DNA of 48,268 nt from a virus. The number at the start of each line of letters is the position of its first letter. Positions within the stretch are counted from its first letter, which is position 1. The notes beneath the pieces are model-generated. The model did not search any database, was not told the origin of the DNA, and saw nothing but the letters and a program-made list of their open reading frames with translations. The DNA is taken from positions 1-48,268 of the IMG/VR virus record IMGVR_UViG_3300037010_002542; one strand, written 5' to 3'. Below, piece after piece: positions 4,519 through 46,588 of this stretch. The position numbers and the translations under genes were made by a program.

Positions 4519-4695
4519 ATGGGGATCCGACCGAACGATGACCGGGTTGCGCTCTATGTCCGCGTGCCTGTGGAATACCACACCGTCTTGAGGGTCGAGG
4601 CGGCACGTCAGCGGAAAAAGGTCGCCGACCTTGTGGTCGACCTTCTGACCCCCTTCGTTGAGGCGCACCCGTTGACGTCTGGCGGTCCCAAGTGA
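4519..4695 (+). CDS. small ribbon-helix-helix-like protein (58 aa)
   Basis: This 58-residue protein begins at ATG 4519. A beta-strand-like segment RVALYVRVPVEYHTVLRVEA is followed by two helices (AARQRKKVADLVVDLLTPF), the layout of Arc/CopG ribbon-helix-helix DNA-binding proteins. Its TGA overlaps the GTG start of the GIY-YIG endonuclease (GTGA), so translation is probably coupled. A plausible role is an autoregulator of the endonuclease cassette. Its start lies directly behind the cloverleaf-like element. The family is judged from pattern only. Confidence 0.65.
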   Translation: MGIRPNDDRVALYVRVPVEYHTVLRVEAARQRKKVADLVVDLLTPFVEAHPLTSGGPK

Positions 4696-5879
4696 CCAGG
4701 GCTGCGGAGAGGGGCCGCATATACCTCATCACCAACACGGTGGATGGGAAGGTCTACGTAGGGCAGACTGTACAGAGCCTCAAGAAGAGGTGGGGTCAAC
4801 ATAGGGGAGACGCCAAGCGTGGTGACCCTCGCCCACTGTACGAGGCACTGCGTCAGTACGGGAAAACATCGTTCACTGTCAAAGAGCTTGAGGTGTGTAG
4901 CCACATACACCACTTGAGCACGGCTGAGACTCGTTGGATTGCTCACTACGATAGTACGAACCCTGAGCGAGGGTATAACCGCACGCAGGGGGGCGGGCAG
5001 GCTTATACAAGAGAAGCCCGGGAGCGGATCTCGGATGGAGTTAAGCAATACTTCAGATCGAATCCGGAGAGGCCCGCTCAGATGTCGGTTGCAACGAAGG
5101 CCGCTTGGGCGCGTACTGAATCGCGAGCAAACTACATGAGGGCATTCGCGGATCCCGCTGTAAAAACACAACAGTCTGAGGCTCAGAAGGAGGCTTGGGC
5201 AGATCCAGCGGTACACGCACAGAGGATTGCGTCACTATACGATCCCCTCATCCTAGACGCTATTTCGGAGGCTTCTCGAAAATCGTGGGAGGATCCAGTA
5301 GTGCGGGCCAAACGACAGGATGCTATGGCCGCAGCATTTGCTCGTCCTGAGGTACGAGAGAAGAGGTCATCTTCCGCCAAAAAGAACTGGGGTGACCCTT
5401 ATACCAGAGCTAGACTAATGGCTGCCACGTCATGGACTAGTGATGAGATACAGGAGATCTCCAAAAAGATGTGGGCTGATCCCGAAGCCCGGGCTCGTTT
5501 GCTGGCAGCGCGTGCGACCCCTAGCGTCAAAGCGAAGCATTCGGCTGCTGTGAGAGAAGCGTTGGCGAAACCAGAGGTGAAGGCAAAGCAGTCCGCGTCA
5601 CTTAGGGCGCGTTGGGCTGATCCCGAAGCCCGGGCTCGTTTGTTGGCGCATACGAACAATGCCGAGACTTATGCACAAGTCTCGGCAGCACGTAAAAAAG
5701 TTTGGGCGAACCCCGAAGCCCGGGCCCGTCAAGCTGCGGCGATCAAGAAGTCGTGGGAAGACCCCGATGTGCGGGCTCGACGATCAGCAGCGATCAAAGC
5801 TGCCAAGGCCGCACGTAAAGCTCGCCTCGCAACCGCAGAGACGCCGGCACATCCGTCTGTGGGTGTGCACGAGAGCTGA
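4692..5879 (+). CDS. GIY-YIG homing endonuclease with tandem DNA-binding repeats
   Basis: The N-terminal 95 residues form a GIY-YIG nuclease domain: RIYLIT (residues 9-14), KVYVGQT (20-26), catalytic-type Arg33 in LKKRWGQH, and an AETRWIAHY segment carrying the expected metal-binding Glu. After that come many imperfect repeats built on a W-x-D-P-E-x-R-A-R core (for example WADPEARARLLAA), like the NUMOD-type DNA-recognition repeats of phage homing endonucleases. The GTG start overlaps the upstream RHH stop. Base composition appears richer in A+T than the flanking virion genes, consistent with a mobile cassette. There is no sign of an interrupted host gene, so it looks free-standing. It converges with the lipoprotein gene, only 18 nt apart. 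Confidence 0.88.
   Translation: MTRAAERGRIYLITNTVDGKVYVGQTVQSLKKRWGQHRGDAKRGDPRPLYEALRQYGKTSFTVKELEVCSHIHHLSTAETRWIAHYDSTNPERGYNRTQGGGQAYTREARERISDGVKQYFRSNPERPAQMSVATKAAWARTESRANYMRAFADPAVKTQQSEAQKEAWADPAVHAQRIASLYDPLILDAISEASRKSWEDPVVRAKRQDAMAAAFARPEVREKRSSSAKKNWGDPYTRARLMAATSWTSDEIQEISKKMWADPEARARLLAARATPSVKAKHSAAVREALAKPEVKAKQSASLRARWADPEARARLLAHTNNAETYAQVSAARKKVWANPEARARQAAAIKKSWEDPDVRARRSAAIKAAKAARKARLATAETPAHPSVGVHES
5472..5642 (+). repeat. 30-nt direct repeat inside the GIY-YIG gene
   Basis: Bases 5472-5501 and 5613-5642 are identical over 30 nt, offset by 141 nt (47 codons). A third diverged copy begins near 5701. They encode the W-A-D-P-E-A-R-A-R repeat unit. The near-perfect DNA identity suggests recent duplication or gene conversion among the repeats. 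Confidence 0.85.
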
Positions 5880-6951: not shown

Positions 6952-7066
6952 TGCGGTGGGGTGCGTCAAATGTTAGCCGGCCTCGCGACTCTTCTTATCC
7001 GCGTGCCCGATGCAGGGTGGAGATCGCATCGCGGATCCCCAAGTTTCAGAAGGATCGGACCGAAGC

Positions 7067-10000
7067 ATGACCAGCAATAACTACGGGCCTGGTGTCTCTC
7101 GTGTGCTCGACCCGACGGGTCGGTCCTTCCTCGATGTCATCTTTCAGGAGGGGAAGCCCCCGTGTGACACCGAGTTCGACCTGCTTCAGGACATCACGAA
7201 CGACTGGCGCCGTATCCACACGCTTCGCGGTATGCCCTCAGGCTGGCTCGGCAACGAGACGAGCCTCCCCGCAGATTTCAACACGAACCCACAGTTCTCG
7301 AACTACTTCAAGTTCGGGCGTCAGCGGTCGGGCGAGACGCAGTCGATCATGTGGGCCGCGGTCAACGGATTCCTGGTCCCTGTCATGGGGACGCATACAG
7401 GCGCGCCGCCGGGATCTCCCAATGATGCTGACACCACGAACGTCATCACGCTCGACCCCCCTCCGTCGAGCAGCGGCGACCTTCGGACAGACTTCGCCTT
7501 CCTAGAGGTTTGGGTTGCGCGCATCTCGCCGAACCCCTCAGCCACGAACAAGCCCGCGTCGTCCGCCGTGTGGAAGTACGGCAACGTCGAGGGCGGGTTT
7601 TCCTTCCTCTCCGATGATCTCGTCGATCCGGCGCTCGGCTTCGAGACCACTCAACGGACCCAGCTCCAGTACCGCATCCGCGTCGTCAAGGGCGTCACGG
7701 GTCTCTCGGCGAACCCGGACGGGTTCGACCCCACGATCAAGGCGCAGGGCACCCAGGCGGCACCCCCACCCTCGGGGGGCTACTCCTTCGTCAACCAGCG
7801 TCTGAACGGCGATCCTGGCCTCTGGCGCGCCGGGGACGGGACCGCGAACACGCTCGGGACCGTGGACGGCTACGTCTACGCGATCCCGCTCTGCGCAGTG
7901 TTCCGCCGTAACGCAGCCGCATGGAGCGGTGATCCGTCTCCAAACCTGAACGGCAGCTTCAACCGGAACCCGACCGCGACCGATCGCACGGGCATCACCA
8001 CCTTCACGGGAGTGCCGACGCTCTCCCTGGGGCTCACCGCGATCGCCAACGAGGTCCTGCTCACCAGCACGGCGCACCTCCCGATCCCGACGACGCCGGC
8101 AGCCCCGGTGCTGATCAAGATCGGCGACGAGTTGATGTCGTACCAGGCGATCGACACACTGAACAGCAAGCTCACGGGCGTCATCCGTGGCCTGAACGGC
8201 ACCGTCGCGGAGACCCACCCCGTGGGGGCCACGATCATGCCGGTCTCGGGTCGCCCCGACGGTCTGTTCGCGGATCAGATCGCCCGGACGGACATCCTCG
8301 ATCTGAGGCACGCCGTGAACCCCAACGGCTTCGACTACGAGGCTCTCCTCTGGTCGAACATGGACAAGCTCTTCCGCGGCCAACTCCGCGCCAACTGGAA
8401 GCGTAGCGGCGGCGGGACGCAGGGCACGTTCGTCCACTACCAGGACAAGATCACGACGACCGGCAGCGTCGGTCTCGGCGTGACGAAGCTCGACGGCCCC
8501 GACGGCATCCGCCACGTCTTCTCGGATGCGGCGGTCATGGAGCCGGTCGAGCTGATCGTGCGCGCCACGGGAGCTGCCTTGCCTGCCGACGTGTCAGTGT
8601 CTTGGTCGTACCCCATTCAGGTGGACCACACCGCGCGGGCGGCCATCGGGTCGTTCACGGCAGGCGATGTCCTGTCGGTCCCCGTCTCGCAGTTCAAGAT
8701 CGGACTGCCGGGCGGCGATGCTGACCAGGTGCGCTTCGTGAACGACGGTGTTGCCGCTGTCACGATCCGCCGCGACGGGCAGACGACACCGATCTCCCCA
8801 ACGCTCTACTCCGTCACCCCCGCCAACCCGGGACCGAACGACGACCTCACGATCACGCTGCTTGGCGGCTTCCCCACGGTAGCCAACACGTCGTTGAACG
8901 ATGGGACGCAGCTCTATATCACGGTCAATGTGATGTACGGCCCGGGCCGAGGGCTTTCGCGTCGACCGGACTCGATCCACTCGGTGGCGTACATCACGCC
9001 GAGCACGGATCTTCTACTCCAGTCGCAGTCGACCGCCCTCGGGAACATCCCGACGCGTATCGCCTGGGCCCCGCTCTGGAGCAAGTACAGGCAGACCACC
9101 TACAAGAACATGATCCCGGTGACGTCGGAGACGTACGGGGATCTCGGGTCCAAGACCGTCGTTCTGACCCCCTTCCGTCGTGTCGCATGGCCGGCGGAGT
9201 TCCGGACCATGGACGGGACGAGCGTGAACGTCGCTCCGACATCGTTCCTCACGGGAACGGTGGGCTCCGTTCTGGGCATCGGCAGCACCTTCACCGACGG
9301 CTCGAAGAACTTCTCAGGAAGCGGTGTCATCGTCGGCGACGTCCTGACGATCCCCTCTGGCGCGGCGGCGGGCACCTACGTGGTCACGTCGGCCCCGGGT
9401 ACCACCACGCTGACGGTATCCCCTGCCTTCACGGGCACGGCGTCGGGCATCGCCTACTCGATCTCCCACGCCCAGGATCTCATGCCCCTGCTCAAAGCGG
9501 ACGGCGTGACCCCCAAGTGGGCCTCGACTGACCCGCTCGGCATGTTCTCGGGCACGACAGAGCCCACGCTCTCGACGAAGAACATCTACGTCACCCTGCC
9601 ACGCCACATGGTCCCTGGCTGGGGTGAGGTGCGTGTCCCCGTCCTGCGGTCGGACACGCCTTCCACCACGTTCGCCGAGGGCGTGAACTTCATGTGCCTG
9701 ACCAAGAAGGGCTTCACGCCTTTCTCGGACGGAGACAAGAACTACGTCCCGTACGACAACGGCGGCCTCACGTATGCGACGTTCGCTACGCAGAACCTCA
9801 CGACGCTGGCTCCGGCGACGTACAATACCGCGTTCACCTACGCGGGACCGGGCCTACAGTTCGCGGGCATCCGCCTATTCACGGACACACGCGGTCTCGG
9901 CCGCCAGGGTCTGGAGCTGCCCCCGTTCTACGGCGTTGCCCGTCTGTTCGCCGTGTACGAGGCTGCGGACTATCGCCTGCACGGTGGGTCGGCGTACAGT

Positions 10001-11464
10001 CCAACTACCAGGCAGCTCACGGGCGGCGGTGCGAAGAACCTCCTCCGTCAGGACTTCCAGGGGCCGACCTTCTGGATCGAGATCGACAGCGACGGGGACT
10101 CGACGTTCATTCTGAACGCGGAGACTCTCGACCTGTCGAAGTCGCCGAACCCGATCGCATCGTTCTCGGCCGGCAACTACGTCATCGAGGCGTCGATCTT
10201 CGGGTTCGACCGTGGGTCTTTCGATACATCGAAGCCGTTCCGGCTTGTGATGACACGCCCCACGAGCAGCTCGCTCATGCGCAGCCAGGCGGCCAGCGGT
10301 ACCCGTTCGTCGAACCTCGGCGTCCTCGTAGCAGGCCCGACGGGTGTGCTCCCGGGGCCGGCCGCATCGACGGACAACATCGTCATCAACTACTCGCGTA
10401 CGCCCTACCAGGGTGATGCGTGGGGCACGCAGGCCAACTACGTGGACACCGCGTACAGCGCCGGTGCGATCACGACGAGTGCGGCATACCAAGTCGTCTC
10501 CACGAAGCTGAACGACCAGGCCCTGACACGACCGAACCAGAAGGCCCTGGAGGTTCTCGCATCCATCGCATTCGAGACGACCCTCGGCACGGGCCGCCTG
10601 TCCGGTGACCTGCCGTCGAACCCGGCGACGTCGACGGACGTGCGCGCCATCGGGTACGAGGACATGTCGGTGTTCCCGCCGACCAGCTCGATCGACCCCC
10701 GTCCGAAGACCCTGCTCGGTGGGTTCTCGACGGCGAGTTCCGTCGAGCTGGCCTCGACCTACCACGGCATGACCGACCGACTCCCGATCGGCGCCCTGGT
10801 CAGGGACAAGGACTTCCGAGGCGAACACCTCGGAAGCAGCTCGACGAACCCTGGGCCCCTCATGACCTTCCGGTCCAACGGTGCGCCCAAGATGTTCTCC
10901 GCGCCGGTACAGCCCCCGAGGCCGGCCTCGCCGCCCCCGGGCCCCCCGCCGGGTCCGGTGCCGGGTGAGATCCTGGAAGCCCCGCTCGCGAACGCCGACA
11001 CCTCCTGCGGCGCTCCGGGCAACATCCTCGTCCATGTGGACGGGGAGCAGGGCAACTACGCGCTCCTCACGAACTACCGCACGACGCGCGGTGGGTCGGC
11101 CTTCGTCGCCAGCGGGGATCACCCCGGTGGCGAGGTCGTCGTGGGCCACGGACGCATCCAGGCGATGGACGGCCACACGAACGTCCTCTCCGGTCAGGCG
11201 TTCCTCGTCCGCAATGCGGTGACGAACGTGGGGGCCTCCGAGGTATCCCCGGGCGACGAGCTGATGATGGTGATCGTCACCACGGCCCACCGTCTCAGCA
11301 ACGGGACCGCGGTGGACTCGTTCGTCGCGATCAGCACGAACGGCACGATGGAGGGCTACTCGGCTGCGGATCTCTACCGCATCGAGGGGCACCCCCTCAC
11401 CTCGAACCACGTGCACATGGGCGTGGACCCGTCGACCATCGTGCTCAGCAAGAACGGGGGTTGA
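7067..11464 (+). CDS. large virion structural protein (1465 aa)
   Basis: The N-terminal segment FLDVIFQEGKPPCDTEFDLL resembles the opening of several large phage tail/baseplate proteins, which share a pattern of an aromatic residue, F-Q-x-G-K-P and an acidic stretch. The body is beta-rich and Gly/Thr/Ser-rich throughout. A Pro-rich linker (PPRPASPPPGPPPGP, about residues 1282-1301) separates a C-terminal domain of about 165 residues (starting near APGNILVHVDGEQG) that may be a distinct knob or receptor-contact module. I chose ATG 7067, preceded by AGAAGGA, over an upstream in-frame ATG at 7010. It is followed after 4 nt by the next gene. It is probably a tail, baseplate or fibre-attachment protein; the precise role is unknown. 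Confidence 0.87.
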   Translation: MTSNNYGPGVSRVLDPTGRSFLDVIFQEGKPPCDTEFDLLQDITNDWRRIHTLRGMPSGWLGNETSLPADFNTNPQFSNYFKFGRQRSGETQSIMWAAVNGFLVPVMGTHTGAPPGSPNDADTTNVITLDPPPSSSGDLRTDFAFLEVWVARISPNPSATNKPASSAVWKYGNVEGGFSFLSDDLVDPALGFETTQRTQLQYRIRVVKGVTGLSANPDGFDPTIKAQGTQAAPPPSGGYSFVNQRLNGDPGLWRAGDGTANTLGTVDGYVYAIPLCAVFRRNAAAWSGDPSPNLNGSFNRNPTATDRTGITTFTGVPTLSLGLTAIANEVLLTSTAHLPIPTTPAAPVLIKIGDELMSYQAIDTLNSKLTGVIRGLNGTVAETHPVGATIMPVSGRPDGLFADQIARTDILDLRHAVNPNGFDYEALLWSNMDKLFRGQLRANWKRSGGGTQGTFVHYQDKITTTGSVGLGVTKLDGPDGIRHVFSDAAVMEPVELIVRATGAALPADVSVSWSYPIQVDHTARAAIGSFTAGDVLSVPVSQFKIGLPGGDADQVRFVNDGVAAVTIRRDGQTTPISPTLYSVTPANPGPNDDLTITLLGGFPTVANTSLNDGTQLYITVNVMYGPGRGLSRRPDSIHSVAYITPSTDLLLQSQSTALGNIPTRIAWAPLWSKYRQTTYKNMIPVTSETYGDLGSKTVVLTPFRRVAWPAEFRTMDGTSVNVAPTSFLTGTVGSVLGIGSTFTDGSKNFSGSGVIVGDVLTIPSGAAAGTYVVTSAPGTTTLTVSPAFTGTASGIAYSISHAQDLMPLLKADGVTPKWASTDPLGMFSGTTEPTLSTKNIYVTLPRHMVPGWGEVRVPVLRSDTPSTTFAEGVNFMCLTKKGFTPFSDGDKNYVPYDNGGLTYATFATQNLTTLAPATYNTAFTYAGPGLQFAGIRLFTDTRGLGRQGLELPPFYGVARLFAVYEAADYRLHGGSAYSPTTRQLTGGGAKNLLRQDFQGPTFWIEIDSDGDSTFILNAETLDLSKSPNPIASFSAGNYVIEASIFGFDRGSFDTSKPFRLVMTRPTSSSLMRSQAASGTRSSNLGVLVAGPTGVLPGPAASTDNIVINYSRTPYQGDAWGTQANYVDTAYSAGAITTSAAYQVVSTKLNDQALTRPNQKALEVLASIAFETTLGTGRLSGDLPSNPATSTDVRAIGYEDMSVFPPTSSIDPRPKTLLGGFSTASSVELASTYHGMTDRLPIGALVRDKDFRGEHLGSSSTNPGPLMTFRSNGAPKMFSAPVQPPRPASPPPGPPPGPVPGEILEAPLANADTSCGAPGNILVHVDGEQGNYALLTNYRTTRGGSAFVASGDHPGGEVVVGHGRIQAMDGHTNVLSGQAFLVRNAVTNVGASEVSPGDELMMVIVTTAHRLSNGTAVDSFVAISTNGTMEGYSAADLYRIEGHPLTSNHVHMGVDPSTIVLSKNGG

Positions 11465-11743: not shown

Positions 11744-12157
11744 ATGGACAATGACCTCTTCAAGGTGTTCATCAACTGGAACACCGGCCTGCTTTGCCTC
11801 GGCGTGTACCTGGTGACGTACGTGATCCGTACGGTCATCGAGGCTCTCTGGGGTGACCGTATCAAGGCCAGCAAGCTCTGGAACAAGCTCTGGAATGAGC
11901 TGTTCCTGCCTATCGGACCGATCGTGGCGGGGGCCCTCCTCGGGCTCCTCGCCAAGAAGTTCCCGCTGCCCACGCCCATCGCCGACAGCATCATGGCGAA
12001 GCTCATGTACGGCGGCGTCTGCGGCGTCCTCTCCGGATGGCTGTACGCACGCCTCCGCGGTCTGCTCAAGCCCGCCGCGGACCCCTCGGCCCCCGACCCT
12101 CTCATGGCCGCCGTCGTGGCAGCCCCTGCCGCGCCCGCAGCCCCCCAGAAGCCATGA
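11744..12157 (+). CDS. small multi-spanning membrane protein (holin-like?)
   Basis: This 137-residue protein has about three hydrophobic segments (near residues 13-35, 55-72 and 82-100), a basic stretch between the first two, and an Ala/Pro-rich soluble C-terminus. It has AAGGGA upstream and overlaps the next gene by ATGA. Size and topology are compatible with a phage holin, and the next gene is also a membrane protein. No endolysin is recognisable nearby, so the lysis role is only a hypothesis. It could equally be a virion or envelope-modifying membrane protein. Confidence 0.78.
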   Translation: MDNDLFKVFINWNTGLLCLGVYLVTYVIRTVIEALWGDRIKASKLWNKLWNELFLPIGPIVAGALLGLLAKKFPLPTPIADSIMAKLMYGGVCGVLSGWLYARLRGLLKPAADPSAPDPLMAAVVAAPAAPAAPQKP

Positions 12158-12699
12158 CAGATCCCACCCCGCAAGCGCCCTCTTTCTGGGCTGATGCCTG
12201 GGGGAAGATGAAGGCCGTTTTCCGGTGGATGGGCGTGAAGCTCATGGCACCGGGAGTCGCCCTCGTGGTCGTCGCCATCGCGATCGTGCTGATCGCGATG
12301 GGGGTGAAAGAGCTACAGATCGGGGGTCTGCTTGGGTGGCTCTTCGGCAAGAAGGACCCTGAGCAGAAGGCGATCGACATCGCCAACACGGTCCCCCCGC
12401 ACCGGGTAGATCCGAACGGCGTGCTCATCCCGCAGGGGACCCCAGACTCGAAGGGCGACACGCAGGCCGTCGTGGTCCCCATTCAGTCCCCGGGGATCTT
12501 CTCGAACCCAACCACGGTGACGTTCACGCCCCCCGGCTCGGACAAGCCCATCGAGATCCAGCTACCTGACGGCATCAAGAACAAGGATGTCGACAAGGTC
12601 ATCGTGGTCCAGCCGGGCAAGTTCGTCGTCACGGTCAAGGACAGCTCCGGGATCCCCGCCCAGAAGGTGGACGATCTCCTCAAGAAGTACGGCGGATAG
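12154..12699 (+). CDS. single-span membrane protein (181 aa)
   Basis: Translation starts at ATG 12154 inside the ATGA overlap with the preceding membrane-protein gene. A longer frame upstream is only the shadow of that gene. One strong hydrophobic segment lies near residues 31-50 (VALVVVAIAIVLIAMGV). The C-terminal domain of about 120 residues is Pro/Asp/Lys-rich and ends in a helix, ALQKVDDLLKKYGG-like. The topology of a short N-terminus, one span and a long soluble domain resembles an inner-membrane spanin or a tail-associated membrane protein. No family was recognised. Confidence 0.78.
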   Translation: MTDPTPQAPSFWADAWGKMKAVFRWMGVKLMAPGVALVVVAIAIVLIAMGVKELQIGGLLGWLFGKKDPEQKAIDIANTVPPHRVDPNGVLIPQGTPDSKGDTQAVVVPIQSPGIFSNPTTVTFTPPGSDKPIEIQLPDGIKNKDVDKVIVVQPGKFVVTVKDSSGIPAQKVDDLLKKYGG

Positions 12700-12754: not shown

Positions 12755-13363
12755 ATGCGTATCAAATCCCTTCTGGCCGCGCTCGTCGCGGCCAGCTTGT
12801 TCTACACCCCCACGGCCCATGCGGCGGAATGTGAGGCTGGTTCCACCTGCGTCACCAAGTCGGACATGGACGTCTTCATCGCCCTCCTGCGCGAGAAGCA
12901 GTGTCTCCAGGGCACGAAGCCGGAAGTTACCACCGACTCCATCGCGATCGTCCTCGATCAAGACGGGCGCATCTTCGCTTCCGGGTCGAACCCGCTCCCC
13001 TGGACGCTGCGTGTGAAGTGGTGCGGGTACATGATCGAAGCCCAGGGCTCGACTCATATCGACGCTGCGATGCGTGTCGAGCAGGAGTCCGGGTTCCGCT
13101 TCCGGGTGAAGGCGTCGATGGGCATCTTGGGGGTCGAGGCGTTCAAGCGGACGCCCTGGACCGAGGCCGTGGACGTGGGCGTCCTCGTCGAGCCGTTTTT
13201 CTACCATTCGCTGAATCTGAATGTCGCGGTCGGCATGCGGTCCTTCGGGGCGGGTATCGGCCTCGACTTGGCGCGAAATTTCGGCCTATACGCCGGATAC
13301 GCGACAGCCTACTCGGGGCTACGCGCGAACCCGTACGTCGGGACCTACTTCTCGTTCTGGTGA
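12755..13363 (+). CDS. exported, outer-membrane-barrel-like protein (202 aa)
   Basis: A clear Sec signal peptide (MRIKSLLAALVAASLFYTPT, then AHA before AECE, cleavage after about residue 25) leads to a mature protein with a Cys-containing N-terminal region (CVTKSDMDVFIALLREKQCL). The last 65 residues alternate hydrophobic and polar positions (SLNLNVAVGMRSFGAGIGLD, NFGLYAGYATAYSGL) and end in GTYFSFW. A terminal aromatic residue is a hallmark of outer-membrane beta-barrels recognised by the Bam complex. ATG 12755 has an excellent GAGGAGG site; the longer upstream frame overlaps the previous gene. Finding this in a phage operon suggests a lysis-related or receptor-masking envelope protein. Only four or so strands are obvious, so it may be a partial barrel or oligomer. 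Confidence 0.82.
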   Translation: MRIKSLLAALVAASLFYTPTAHAAECEAGSTCVTKSDMDVFIALLREKQCLQGTKPEVTTDSIAIVLDQDGRIFASGSNPLPWTLRVKWCGYMIEAQGSTHIDAAMRVEQESGFRFRVKASMGILGVEAFKRTPWTEAVDVGVLVEPFFYHSLNLNVAVGMRSFGAGIGLDLARNFGLYAGYATAYSGLRANPYVGTYFSFW

Positions 13364-13372
13364 GGTTTTGAC

Positions 13373-13777
13373 ATGGGAAACAGCGCTGGAGTACACCTGG
13401 TCGTGGACGGCTTCGTGAAGGACCCGTCGATCTTCACGGCGGCGAACATCGAGCACATGTTCGCTTCGATCATCACGGCCCTGGAGATGAAGGCGCTGGG
13501 TCCGGCGCACATCTACGAGGTGCCAGTCGACCCGGAGATCCTACGCAGGGTCCAGGAGACGGGCACGTTCGAGGACTCGGGAGGCATCACGGCCGTGGTC
13601 GTGATCTCCACGTCCCACCTGAGCATTCACTGCTGGCCGTCGGAGAAGTTCTTCAGTTTGGATGTTTTTTCGTGCAAGGACTACCCGCACGAGAAGGCCC
13701 TGAGCATCGTCAAGCGTGTCCTTGGGGTGGCCTCGGCGAACGTCACGGTGCTGGCCCGAACCAAGCCCTCCCGTTGA
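13373..13777 (+). CDS. speD: SpeD-family pyruvoyl-dependent decarboxylase (AdoMetDC class 1b-like)
   Basis: This family is made as a proenzyme that self-cleaves before a Ser to create a pyruvoyl cofactor. It then decarboxylates S-adenosylmethionine to make the aminopropyl donor for spermidine. The diagnostic block is SHLSIHCWPSEKFFSLDVFS, with candidate pyruvoyl Ser81, His86 and Cys101 at the spacings (5 and 15) of the short bacterial/archaeal proenzymes. At 134 residues its length is typical. The residue before the cleavage Ser is Thr80 where the family usually has Glu. Some SpeD homologues, including phage ones, are known to have become arginine or ornithine decarboxylases, so the substrate is open. 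It starts 9 nt after the exported-protein gene, with GAGG upstream. No spermidine synthase is visible here. Confidence 0.88.
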   Translation: MGNSAGVHLVVDGFVKDPSIFTAANIEHMFASIITALEMKALGPAHIYEVPVDPEILRRVQETGTFEDSGGITAVVVISTSHLSIHCWPSEKFFSLDVFSCKDYPHEKALSIVKRVLGVASANVTVLARTKPSR

Positions 13778-13789
13778 TCCCACGGATCC

Positions 13790-13814
13790 TTTCGTAGGAA
13801 AACACCCTACGAAA
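13790..13814. other. 9-bp perfect hairpin after speD
   Basis: TTTCGTAGG (13790-13798) pairs with CCTACGAAA (13806-13814) across loop AAAACAC, 12 nt past the speD stop and 24 nt before the next ATG. There is no T-run, so it is either a weak terminator or an mRNA-processing/stability element. The perfect symmetry would also suit an operator. Confidence 0.5.
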
Positions 13815-13837: not shown

Positions 13838-14980
13838 ATGAACATCATCGCGTTGATCTCGATGTCGCCGGAGGAAGCCAAGCGAATCCTTGGCTTCCCG
13901 CCGGGTGCGAACCCCACGGAAGATGAGGTCCGCAAGGCCCAGCGACAGCAGGCGGTCAAGCACCACCCCGACACCGGGGGTGAGGCTGGCAAGCTCGTCG
14001 AGGTCAACAATGCGGCGGACGTGCTCCTCAACAAGCACGACTACGATCGCCGTCCGGGTGATAGCGGTGGGTACGGTGGGCCCCCGGCCAGGGGCTACGG
14101 CTACAACACCGACCCGGCCCAGACCTGGAAAGAGCCCGAGCCCGAGGTCACCACGTTCGATGAGGCCAAGGCCAAGGCGGGCGTGCCCTCTGACGTCGAC
14201 TGGGTCTTCATCACGGACCGGCAGCGCGGGACGAGCTATTCGTCCGACGAGTTCAGCCGCTCTGAGGCCACCTGGGTCGCCTACGGTCGATCGGCCACCC
14301 AGCATGTCTTCGTCGGGATGAACCACTTCGCGAAGTCGGACTACTTCGTGGGCGGGCGTGCCCGTCAGGATCACTGGAAGATCGAGGTTCAAAGCTACCC
14401 CATCCGCGGGGACGAGGGGCAGCAGCCCGCGTGGCTCTACGGGAACGTCGTGAAGGCCCTCAAGAAGGCGGGCTTCGACGGGCGGTTCAACTCGAAGGTC
14501 GTCGACGCCAAGGGCTGGCACTTCGACGCCAAGTTCCCGCACGGCGCGGCGATGTCCCTCAAGCACTTCCTGGTCGAGACGGGCGCGGTCTCAGGTGACG
14601 ACGCCCGCGTTCAGGGGCGCAAGCACGTCATCGAGGCCGTGTACAGCAAGAGCTACTCACCCGATACGGCCCAATCCAAGCCTGACATCCACGAGGTGAC
14701 GTACGGGACCCCGCCGCACACCTACGTGGCGTACGAGGGTCTCTCGATCGTCATCAACGGCAGGCCCTACGCGCTCGACCAGGTCGACATGCAGCGTGTC
14801 GCGAAGGTCAAGCTGCGTGGCCGAAGCCTCCTCAACGCAATCTTCGGGGATACGGGGCAGACGAAGAAGAACCTCACACGGATGCAGACGGGCAAGCTGA
14901 TCCTCAAGTGGCTCTCGGAGAACCTGAAAAGCCTCCCTGAGGCCGCTCTCCAGACCCTTCGCGCCGCCGCCGAACAGTAG
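13838..14980 (+). CDS. J-domain protein with unknown C-terminal region (380 aa)
   Basis: The N-terminal 70 residues form a DnaJ-type J-domain: SPEEAKRILGFPPGANPTED, then a helix ending in AVKHHPDTGG (HPD triad), then helix III AGKLVEVNNAADVLL. J-domains stimulate Hsp70 ATPases, so this probably recruits host DnaK to a phage client. A Gly/Tyr/Pro-rich linker (about 75-95) leads to a C-terminal domain of about 285 residues with no motif that I recognise. Zinc-binding CxxCxGxG repeats of classical DnaJ are absent. Upstream is the 9-bp hairpin; downstream the next gene follows after 10 nt. Confidence 0.85.
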   Translation: MNIIALISMSPEEAKRILGFPPGANPTEDEVRKAQRQQAVKHHPDTGGEAGKLVEVNNAADVLLNKHDYDRRPGDSGGYGGPPARGYGYNTDPAQTWKEPEPEVTTFDEAKAKAGVPSDVDWVFITDRQRGTSYSSDEFSRSEATWVAYGRSATQHVFVGMNHFAKSDYFVGGRARQDHWKIEVQSYPIRGDEGQQPAWLYGNVVKALKKAGFDGRFNSKVVDAKGWHFDAKFPHGAAMSLKHFLVETGAVSGDDARVQGRKHVIEAVYSKSYSPDTAQSKPDIHEVTYGTPPHTYVAYEGLSIVINGRPYALDQVDMQRVAKVKLRGRSLLNAIFGDTGQTKKNLTRMQTGKLILKWLSENLKSLPEAALQTLRAAAEQ

Positions 14981-25478: not shown

Positions 25479-26342
25479 ATGATGAAAGAACATGCGGCAT
25501 ACGGTCAGGTGTATCTGGTGAGAAATGTGGTGACCCTCCAAGGATACGTAGGGCAAACTGTTTCGACTTTGAGGAATCGGTGGCGCCAACACAAGCAAAG
25601 TGGCAGCCCCTGCCGCTTGCTATCAGAAGCGATCAAGGAGTGGGGCCCTGATTCCTTCGAGATGATGAGATTGGACCTCGCCACTTCGGCAGATGACCTA
25701 AACGGCAAAGAAAAGGCTTGGATCCATAAGCTAGGGACTCTTGCCCCGAACGGGTACAACCTCTTTGAAGGTGGGGATCAACCGTCCTGGATACGCGCAC
25801 ACAAGTCCATTGGGCGGAAGCGATTTTTGACGGAAAGAGCTTCAAAGGGGTTTGCCAAGGGCCCGTCCACTCTGACTGCGGGTGATGTTCGGGTGATATT
25901 CCAGCGGTATGATGCGGGGGATAGTGTCCGGGGCATAGCAGCTACATTCGGTGTAGTCTCATCCACCATATCGCACATACTACGGGGGGACACCTGGACC
26001 CACCTGGGCCTACATACAACTAGGGTGCGGCACCACCGCATCACCACAGAGGAGGTGCGGCAGATTGTCTGTCTGAATCAGTCGGGGTTGCTCCATAAAG
26101 CGATCGCACAACAAAGCGGAAGGTCCCGGTCAACTGTCAGCAAGATTCTTAACGCGAAGATACACACGGGGGTTCGCTCCGAATGGGGGCTGAAACGTTC
26201 CAATCGTAAGTCAGCCGCAGAGTACCAGGAACAGATCCTGAAGCTACGAGCACAGGGATTGTCTTACGAAGCAATTGGGGAAAGCCTCAAGATCAGCACT
26301 AGCACGGCTTGGAGAGTATGTCGGAAAGCAGGTGTGCCGTGA
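25479..26342 (+). CDS. GIY-YIG homing endonuclease with C-terminal HTH repeats
   Basis: The nuclease domain shows GQVYLVRN, LQGYVGQT, LRNRWRQHK with the catalytic-type Arg, and NGKEKAWIHKLGTLAPNGYN with the metal-binding Glu. The C-terminal half holds at least three helix-turn-helix-like units, near residues 130-165 (SVRGIAATFGVVSSTISHIL), 185-215 (LLHKAIAQQSGRSRSTVSKI) and 255-285 (LSYEAIGESLKISTSTAWRV), as in modular phage homing endonucleases. It starts at paired ATG codons (25479/25482) without a clear ribosome site. It overlaps the start of the Dam gene. Confidence 0.88.
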   Translation: MMKEHAAYGQVYLVRNVVTLQGYVGQTVSTLRNRWRQHKQSGSPCRLLSEAIKEWGPDSFEMMRLDLATSADDLNGKEKAWIHKLGTLAPNGYNLFEGGDQPSWIRAHKSIGRKRFLTERASKGFAKGPSTLTAGDVRVIFQRYDAGDSVRGIAATFGVVSSTISHILRGDTWTHLGLHTTRVRHHRITTEEVRQIVCLNQSGLLHKAIAQQSGRSRSTVSKILNAKIHTGVRSEWGLKRSNRKSAAEYQEQILKLRAQGLSYEAIGESLKISTSTAWRVCRKAGVP

Positions 26343-44954: not shown

Positions 44955-45824
44955 CTACTTCAGCCTCGTGCCGTTGGCAGGCACACCCGTCGGCTGAAAG
45001 ACGCTCAGCATGTCAGCATCCCCGGCCGCGAGGACCATCCCGCACGACTCCAGGCCCATCATCTTGATGGGCGGAAGGTTCGCGACGACGACGAGCCGGC
45101 GTCCGACCATCTCCTCGGGCGTGAAGGACTTGCCGAGCCCGGCCAGGATCTGGCGCGGGGCGGGCTCGCCGAGATCGATCATGAGGCGCAGGAGCTTGTT
45201 GCTCTTCGGCACGCGGTCAGCCTCGATCACGGTGCCCACGCGGAGTTCGACCCGCTGGAGACAGTCCATGACCGTGGGTTCGGGCATGACTGCGGGAGCT
45301 ACAGCTTCGGCCTCGGCGCGGGAAGTCGCCTGGAGACAGGCGGCGAGGCCGTTGCCCACGTCCGCGGACTGCTGCGCCACCACGGGGTCCTTCAGTGCTT
45401 CACGCATGGCCGCACCCAGACCGAAGGGCTTGCGGGGCGCAAGAGGGTCGGGAGTGGTCGGGGCGGGGTCGATCGGGGCGCTGTTCTTGAGGTCGTCCAT
45501 CATGTCCTGGTAGGTGTGTGCGGGGTGTCGAATCGACTGCACACGGTAGGGCGTTCCGGCTGCTTCGAGGCGCCCCATGTGAAGGCGCATGCAATCCTCG
45601 CGGTTGTAGAGCAGCGACATCTCGTCCCCAGGCTTGCGCAGCCTGGGATTGTCGTAGGACAGCACCCACAGGGGGCACTGGGTGTGCCATGAGACCCGTT
45701 CGCGGTACGCGAATGTCTGATAGGTCTCGTCCGTGATCGCCCAGTCAGGCCGGGAGATCAAGCCGTCGACAGGCACCTGCTCCCGGGTCATCGGACCCCC
45801 GGTCACCCGGCAACGAAGCTCCAT
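44955..45824 (-). CDS. protein with MetRS C-terminal-type tRNA-binding OB fold (289 aa)
   Basis: The last 105 residues match the Trbp111/EMAP-II/MetG C-terminal domain: VELRVGTVIEADRVPKSNKL, LLRLMIDLGE, RQILAGLGKSFTPEEMVGRR and LVVVANLPPIKMMGLESCGM. This domain binds the elbow of tRNA non-specifically. No aminoacyl-tRNA synthetase core is present; the N-terminal 185 residues are unrelated and start MELRCRVTGG. The ATG overlaps the TGA of the histidine-phosphatase gene. Next to an RNA methyltransferase, it suggests phage handling or protection of tRNAs. Confidence 0.88.
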   Translation of the reverse strand: MELRCRVTGGPMTREQVPVDGLISRPDWAITDETYQTFAYRERVSWHTQCPLWVLSYDNPRLRKPGDEMSLLYNREDCMRLHMGRLEAAGTPYRVQSIRHPAHTYQDMMDDLKNSAPIDPAPTTPDPLAPRKPFGLGAAMREALKDPVVAQQSADVGNGLAACLQATSRAEAEAVAPAVMPEPTVMDCLQRVELRVGTVIEADRVPKSNKLLRLMIDLGEPAPRQILAGLGKSFTPEEMVGRRLVVVANLPPIKMMGLESCGMVLAAGDADMLSVFQPTGVPANGTRLK

Positions 45825-46588
45825 CACGGGTCCCCACCCTCGTAGATGTAGCCCTTGTCCTCGCCGTCGATGATCGCACGAATCGAGCAGTTCTTCGGGT
45901 TCGACTCCTTGTCGAACCACTCGAAGGGCAGATGGAGCCACTGCTGGACGAACGCCCTGATCGTCGTCCCATGGGCCACGATCACGAGCCTCTGGACGCC
46001 GTGCTTCTGGGCATCGCGGTGGAACGTGCCGAACGCCTGGTGGACGCGCACAGCCACGTCGAAGCGGGACTCGCCGAGAGGCATGCGGGCCCAGAAGCGG
46101 CCTTCCATGTCCTCGCATTTCTTGTAGTGGGCGAACTCGTCCGGGTAGCGCTTCGCCAGGTCCTCGTCCGAGAGGCCATCGAAGAGTCCGAACTGCTGCT
46201 CGGCCAACAGGACGTGCTCACGCCGCCCGTGAGCCGGCACGCACTTCGTCAGGCGTTCGATCTCGCCGAGGATCTCGTCCGAGGTCTGGCGCGCACGCGC
46301 GTAGGGGCTGGTCCAGAGGCGGAACGGGTGCTTGCCCGTCACGATGTGACGCGCCGTCATGACGTCGAGTATGGACAGCCCGCTGATCGGGTTCTTGCTG
46401 AAGTTCACCGACTCGATGGGCCGGTTGTTCTCCCTCGCGACGAACCAGCGTGCGAGGAACTCCCCTGCCTTCTTCGCCTGCGCGCGTCCCCGTTCCGAGA
46501 GGTTGATCGCGTGATCGGGGAGCCTGCGATGAACGTCCTTGTCGACGTTCCCTTCCGACTCGCCGTGGCGTACGAGGAAGATTTCCAT
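45824..46588 (-). CDS. histidine-phosphatase family protein (254 aa)
   Basis: The RHG phosphohistidine motif is intact (FLVRHGESEGN, residues 4-14). Other landmarks are TSPYARARQTSDEI with the second phosphate-binding Arg, a MPLGESRFDVAVRV region with the acid Glu, and IVAHGTTIRAF with the second His. This is the cofactor-dependent phosphoglycerate-mutase/broad phosphatase superfamily. An insertion of about 35 residues after the first motif (near 45-80) is unusual. The ATG follows GTAGAGGAGATC. It is coupled by ATGA overlap to the tRNA-binding gene. Substrate unknown. Confidence 0.9.
   Translation of the reverse strand: MEIFLVRHGESEGNVDKDVHRRLPDHAINLSERGRAQAKKAGEFLARWFVARENNRPIESVNFSKNPISGLSILDVMTARHIVTGKHPFRLWTSPYARARQTSDEILGEIERLTKCVPAHGRREHVLLAEQQFGLFDGLSDEDLAKRYPDEFAHYKKCEDMEGRFWARMPLGESRFDVAVRVHQAFGTFHRDAQKHGVQRLVIVAHGTTIRAFVQQWLHLPFEWFDKESNPKNCSIRAIIDGEDKGYIYEGGDP

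Follow-up and report, generated by a model that had tools for sequence, protein, structure and literature searches.

Known SpeD homologues and their substrates

The closest described system is the class 1b SpeD, as represented by T. maritima TM0655 (PDB 1tlu/1vr7) and the SpeD of phage S-PM2; the known SpeD structures are dimeric. From the T. maritima complexes, we take F49, E62, W70 and E72 (T. maritima numbering) to be the AdoMet contacts. Substrate-shifted SpeDs are already known in phages, where they were first described only in 2023. The SpeD homologue of pelagiphage HTVC201P (SpeDA, AXH71538) is a characterised arginine decarboxylase (ADC) (PMC9992855), and PMC10407285 describes SpeDAs as having lost a Pro that is conserved in true AdoMetDCs. 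The same paper gives Gln, Thr, Phe and Tyr as the diagnostic residues of the SpeDC ornithine decarboxylases (ODCs).

A SpeD-like proenzyme gene in a viral contig

The window (the whole stretch of DNA that was analysed, a 48,268-base virus contig classed as linear) contains a speD-like gene at 13373-13777 on the plus strand, which encodes 134 aa and has an ATG start with a GAGG motif just 5' of it. Residues 8-129 of the product match Pfam AdoMet_dc (PF02675; E=8.7e-18, 65.1 bits with a cut-off of 25), and PHROG 3125 ('S-adenosylmethionine decarboxylase') matches with E=1.6e-15, both scores being far above chance. The AlphaFold model, computed with 47 family sequences (pLDDT 96.7), shows the T. 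maritima AdoMetDC fold; its top PDB matches by Foldseek are 1vr7_B/1tlu_A (E ~7e-9, prob 1.00), and the nearest solved structures are the T. maritima and Aquifex AdoMetDCs. By profile and predicted fold, the product is a class 1b SpeD proenzyme of the AdoMet_dc superfamily, in line with the SpeD-like proenzyme that a reading made earlier from the sequence only had proposed, and it resembles TM0655 and S-PM2 SpeD in fold, in size and in the Ser-His-Cys set with its spacing. Relatives sit on contigs as long as 393 kb, so the record probably covers only part of a large phage genome.

With its canonical fold and catalytic residues, the protein could be a true AdoMetDC with a divergent pocket, which, as several characterised phage SpeDs do, would deliver decarboxylated AdoMet to the spermidine synthase of the host. 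We regard this as possible though doubtful; the score with TIGR03330 (the NCBIfam AdoMetDC equivalog) is 57.8 bits, below the cut-off of 75.65, which speaks against it.

Active-site residues and the residue before the cleavage Ser

Ser81 (13613-13615), His86 (13628-13630) and Cys101 (13673-13675; all on the plus strand), which the sequence-only reading had placed at family spacing, correspond to T. maritima S63, H68 and C83 in the alignment, and are the predicted pyruvoyl precursor, a predicted processing residue and a residue predicted to act in catalysis/processing, respectively. Ser81 is invariant across the groups compared, and T73 occupies the position of Ser55. The four catalytic positions are retained almost everywhere across these groups and are intact in 12/12 analysed members of the subfamily to which the window protein belongs (see below). 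Since Ser81, His86 and Cys101 are conserved and the proenzyme is predicted to fold as a class 1b AdoMetDC, it would be expected to cleave itself at Thr80-Ser81 and to convert Ser81 into the pyruvoyl group.

Thr80 (13610-13612, plus strand) stands at the position of Glu62 in the alignment, as had been pointed out earlier; 68 of the 69 other viral SpeDs sampled have the usual Glu here. Within the subfamily, the residue is Thr (10) or Lys (1), the sole exception with Lys being L012. This Thr is no safe marker of a substrate shift. Genomes of Priestia, Brevibacillus, Bacillus and Peribacillus encode a [SA]-T-S-H SpeD whose C-terminal extension resembles spermidine synthase (for two of the fusions, Pfam confirms this), and in Fictibacillus a spermidine synthase gene directly follows a Thr-type speD. 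The Bacilli fusions (L098, L101, L105, L110) share the T-S-H motif with the window protein (S-T-S-H in most) but lie inside the canonical clade; Bacilli Thr-type SpeDs retain F49, P51, W70, P71 and E72, and those with a fused or adjacent spermidine synthase are probably true AdoMetDCs. Thr80 as a stand-alone marker was therefore ruled out, and the presence of the motif in these Bacilli SpeDs counts in favour of a true AdoMetDC. Thr also fits an enzyme that is processed and active, since the HTVC201P arginine decarboxylase has Thr before its cleavage Ser. We note that those of the Bacilli fusion genomes that were checked encode a canonical SpeD as well.

Substrate-side positions and a rebuilt loop

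We compared six AdoMet-side positions (Phe49, Pro51, Glu62, aromatic 70, Pro71 and Glu72 in T. maritima numbering). On average, 5.88 of the six are kept in canonical SpeDs, 4.89 in the Bacilli and other Thr-type SpeDs, 2.75 in the window subfamily, 1.86 in the pelagiphage ADC group and 0 in SpeDC-like sequences. The equivalents of Pro51, Glu62 and Glu72 are lost in 12/12 subfamily members analysed. In the window protein these three are replaced, aromatic 70 and Pro71 are retained (Trp88-Pro89), and the alignment of Phe49 is uncertain because of an insertion. The insertion (residues 51-69; 13523-13579, plus strand) is specific to the subfamily and takes the place of the F-x-P-x-G loop that precedes the cleavage strand in canonical SpeDs; residues 54-63 within it are predicted to form a helix. 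The hallmarks of the subfamily are this insertion of variable length, a D-[ED]-G-G-[IV] motif (where the window protein has S instead of E) and, mostly, F-S-C-K.

The window protein thus differs from class 1b SpeD in having Thr for Glu62, replaced Pro51 and Glu72, the insertion and a Lys after the catalytic Cys, besides falling in a separate clade (see below). Judged from the alignments, the substrate pocket of the subfamily appears changed around an intact catalytic core. The subfamily-wide loss of the Pro51, Glu62 and Glu72 equivalents together with the rebuilt loop argues against a true AdoMetDC, and the kept W88 and P89 argue for one. The pocket is also unlike the signatures of AdoMetDC, ADC and ODC alike, with Leu/Ser at E72 and Cys/Ala/Thr/Val after H68. 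These residues, the Lys after the catalytic Cys and the subfamily-specific helix would suit a self-cleaving enzyme that acts on another small amino compound, a substrate new to the family; we think this improbable, as the characterised SpeD homologues use AdoMet, Arg or Orn (PMC9992855, PMC10407285).

Like the window protein, HTVC201P SpeDA is phage-encoded, has Thr before Ser, lacks the F-x-P loop motif and contains an M-K-x-L-G stretch. Unlike it, SpeDA has W-D-E (W-P-S in the window protein), Gln at -5 and no long insertion; the two share 22% identity, and the SpeDA gene adjoins genes for DNA polymerase, exonuclease and ribonucleotide reductase. The window protein has lost Pro51 and kept Pro71, either of which may be the Pro that SpeDAs lack (PMC10407285). 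The SpeDC enzymes (PMC10407285) and the SpeDC-like L231, L210 and L244 share with the window protein the Thr before Ser and the F-S-C-K context. When the SpeDC diagnostic positions are taken from SpeDC-like sequences such as L231, the window protein has Thr alone, without Gln, Phe and Tyr (L011 and L154 of the subfamily do have the Gln). This count of one out of four ODC-diagnostic residues and the kept Trp88-Pro89 speak against the decarboxylation of Arg or Orn by the window protein, a reading that we nevertheless prefer (see below).

Phage relatives and co-occurring canonical SpeDs

A scan of viral contigs with the single protein as query gave no relatives, and the first family alignment was too diverse; narrower alignments retrieved a subfamily, which comprises the window protein, 11 other phage records and three MAG contigs (L091-L093). 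In the viral contig scans, the full-length relatives (L153, L154, L011, L155, L012-L018 and L156) share 34-64% identity with the window protein, and L016 and L017 encode an identical protein. The subfamily seems to be undescribed in the literature searched.

An additional canonical, Glu-type SpeD is found in two of the 12 phage records (323 kb and 213 kb). In the 323-kb contig (L012, 7513-8399), the canonical speD and then the variant speD lie in tandem with a stop/start overlap (ATGA), and in the 213-kb contig (G007) the two genes are located apart. Since a canonical SpeD is already present in these two phages, a second true AdoMetDC is less expected there. The pairs, and the adjacent and overlapping copy in particular, would also fit a non-enzymatic or regulatory partner, e.g. 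a subunit pairing with canonical SpeD, for which the trypanosome prozyme is the comparison case and the dimeric state of SpeD a favourable circumstance. We consider such a role very improbable, because, in contrast to degenerate paralogues, all members keep the four catalytic positions, and 10 of the 12 phage records (many of them incomplete) have no second SpeD. According to PMC10407285, some genomes pair SpeDC with canonical SpeD, and a second SpeD homologue per genome served as a search criterion for substrate-shifted SpeDs. Natural pairs of a canonical and a variant SpeD within one phage make a shift directly testable.

Another large phage with a canonical SpeD directly followed by a divergent one is the isolated jumbo Microcystis phage MaAM05 (L258, 247634-249178), which has a three-gene run of speD, divergent speD-like gene and speE. 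Its divergent copy, unlike the window protein, is of Glu-type and groups with Patescibacteria-like sequences, and MaAM05 has SpeE as well. If this divergent copy makes putrescine, the three genes together would give a route to spermidine that the phage itself encodes.

No convincing homologue of spermidine synthase, arginase/agmatinase, PLP-type ODC or deoxyhypusine synthase was found in the 12 phage records (many perhaps incomplete); one sub-threshold Spermine_synth match was seen in G006. The window record itself has no spermidine synthase, in agreement with the sequence-only reading. This absence is weak evidence, since most SpeD phages, including ones with proven AdoMetDCs, are not reported as SpeE carriers (PMC9992855), and the phage genome is probably covered only in part.

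Phylogenetic placement

The window subfamily forms one clade in every tree (support 97/87, and 100/98 in the enlarged tree). The main AdoMetDC clade, with the canonical SpeDs and the Bacilli fusions, excludes it (100/98, and 100/99 in the enlarged tree), and this split stays when the active-site columns are removed (98/97). The HTVC201P ADC group was the sister of the subfamily in two trees (90/81, and 96/84 without active-site columns), but this link was lost once four sequences were added (phiN3, LR756501 and the MaAM05 pair), and a firm ADC assignment by tree was dropped for that reason. The phylogeny suggested with the sequence-only reading puts the protein outside the main AdoMetDC clade and gives it no stable grouping with the characterised ADC. 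The trees left out the characterised crenarchaeal, Gimesia and phage LBP/UCP01-04 proteins. We note that the bacterial relatives of the pelagiphage ADC have a gene context without a polyamine cluster.

In AU tests, neither the grouping of the subfamily with the ADC group (p=0.41) nor that with the whole canonical clade (p=0.25) was rejected. The latter leaves room for a true AdoMetDC, and the lack of a stable placement beside either characterised group would agree with a substrate new to the family. A recent origin by duplication of the canonical SpeD found in two of the phages was rejected (AU p=0.0018), and so was a common origin with the Bacilli Thr-type SpeDs (p=0.036 and 0.009) or, by tree tests, with phage canonical SpeDs; the failure to nest within these two groups counts against a true AdoMetDC. 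The position in the tree does not suffice to assign the substrate, since a proven AdoMetDC (PMC9992855), the SpeD of Sinorhizobium phage phiN3, falls outside the main AdoMetDC clade and groups with SpeDC-like sequences, as its original authors also saw (PMC9992855). A true AdoMetDC beyond the main clade thus has a precedent.

Genomic neighbourhood

In several large phages, the speD of this subfamily occurs at one fixed place within a conserved gene block. In L154, L011, L014, L012 and L155, the block consists of a tail-like gene, small genes, a membrane-like gene and a secreted-like gene, followed by speD. In the window, it is headed by a gene (7010-11464, plus strand) for a 1484-aa tail-like protein (PHROG 1101 'tail protein', E=9.6e-7), which is 50-59% identical to its counterparts in these five contigs and partially matches the 'tail fiber protein' of Tunturiibacter phage Tunturi_5. 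The gene at 12037-12699 (plus strand) encodes a conserved protein with a hydrophobic membrane-like segment, probably a membrane protein (59-70% identity in five large-phage contigs; one homologue has a weak holin-like PHROG match with E=0.058).

Directly upstream of speD, 12755-13363 (plus strand) encodes a 202-aa protein with an apparent signal peptide, invariant Cys residues and a C-terminal half rich in beta strands, probably a secreted beta-rich protein. The longest ORF here would begin at 12587; the ATG at 12755 is favoured by homologues and by a GGAGG motif, and the gene sits upstream of speD in five other large-phage contigs. Neither a family match nor, with its model (pLDDT 73.8), a confident fold match was found for this protein; we note that ~8 predicted beta strands and an aromatic C-terminus are reminiscent of an outer-membrane barrel. 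Downstream of speD, the gene at 13838-14980 (plus strand) encodes a protein with an N-terminal DnaJ-like domain (Pfam DnaJ 25.3 bits in the window, just under the cut-off, and 37.3 bits in L012), and it is kept after speD in L011, L012 and L155.

The 'structural operon' of the sequence-only reading is only partly right, because the block mixes the tail-like gene upstream of speD with genes for membrane-like, secreted-like and DnaJ-domain proteins, which are the immediate neighbours of speD. The sequence-only reading also held that the enzyme may supply a polyamine for DNA packaging; no recognisable packaging genes were found among these neighbours. In L011, a GIY-YIG endonuclease gene comes just before the variant speD, in L012 the canonical speD takes that place, and L153, whose SpeD is the most similar one, lacks the speD neighbours of the window.

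Between speD and dnaJ lies a perfect 9-bp inverted repeat with a 7-base loop and no T run (13790-13814, plus strand), for which 100 shuffles gave no chance match (folding z=-1.88) and the syntenic relatives have no equivalent at the same place. Elsewhere in the window there are two homing-endonuclease-like genes (4692-5879 and 25479-26342) and, on the minus strand, a 387-aa ORF (44955-46118) with a C-terminal tRNA-binding domain (PF01588), which seems unusual for a phage.

Putative substrate and role

The reading that we find most likely, at slightly better than an even chance, is that the window protein is a pyruvoyl-dependent decarboxylase of Arg (yielding agmatine) or Orn (yielding putrescine). 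The pocket would be altered by the rebuilding of the F-x-P loop with its insertion and by the loss of both the Glu before Ser and the Glu of W-P-E, and the product, agmatine or putrescine, would enter the polyamine pathway of the host while a large tailed phage infects it. No agmatine- or ornithine-processing genes were found in the phage records, which speaks against this reading. The idea of a shifted substrate, raised earlier on account of the Thr, stays plausible through the AdoMet-side changes, the position outside the main clade and the canonical SpeD coexisting in two phages; the Thr itself is no valid basis for it. On this reading, the subfamily would extend the substrate-shifted phage SpeDs to large phages. 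More speculatively, and in our view rather unlikely, the subfamily may be a separate SpeD lineage specific to large phages, independent in origin of SpeDA and SpeDC and with a substrate of its own, its gene lying among envelope-type genes in a conserved late block and at times overlapping a canonical speD.

Other SpeD-like variants

Several other unusual SpeD-like proteins were seen. In a Berkelbacteria sequence (L100, 5917-7080), a SpeD domain of D-F-S-H type is fused to a methyltransferase of the NNMT/PNMT/TEMT family. Patescibacteria proteins of ~440-470 aa (L217, L222, L224-L230) have a SpeD-like domain in which S-N-L-x-x-H-like motifs replace S-H-x-x-x-H, and a 302-aa Gracilibacteria protein (L152) consists of two SpeD-like repeats without the usual S-H-x-x-x-H motif. 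In SpeD homologues of Chloroflexi/SAR202 (L149, L150), the catalytic Cys is replaced by Ala, and Lys precedes the Ser.
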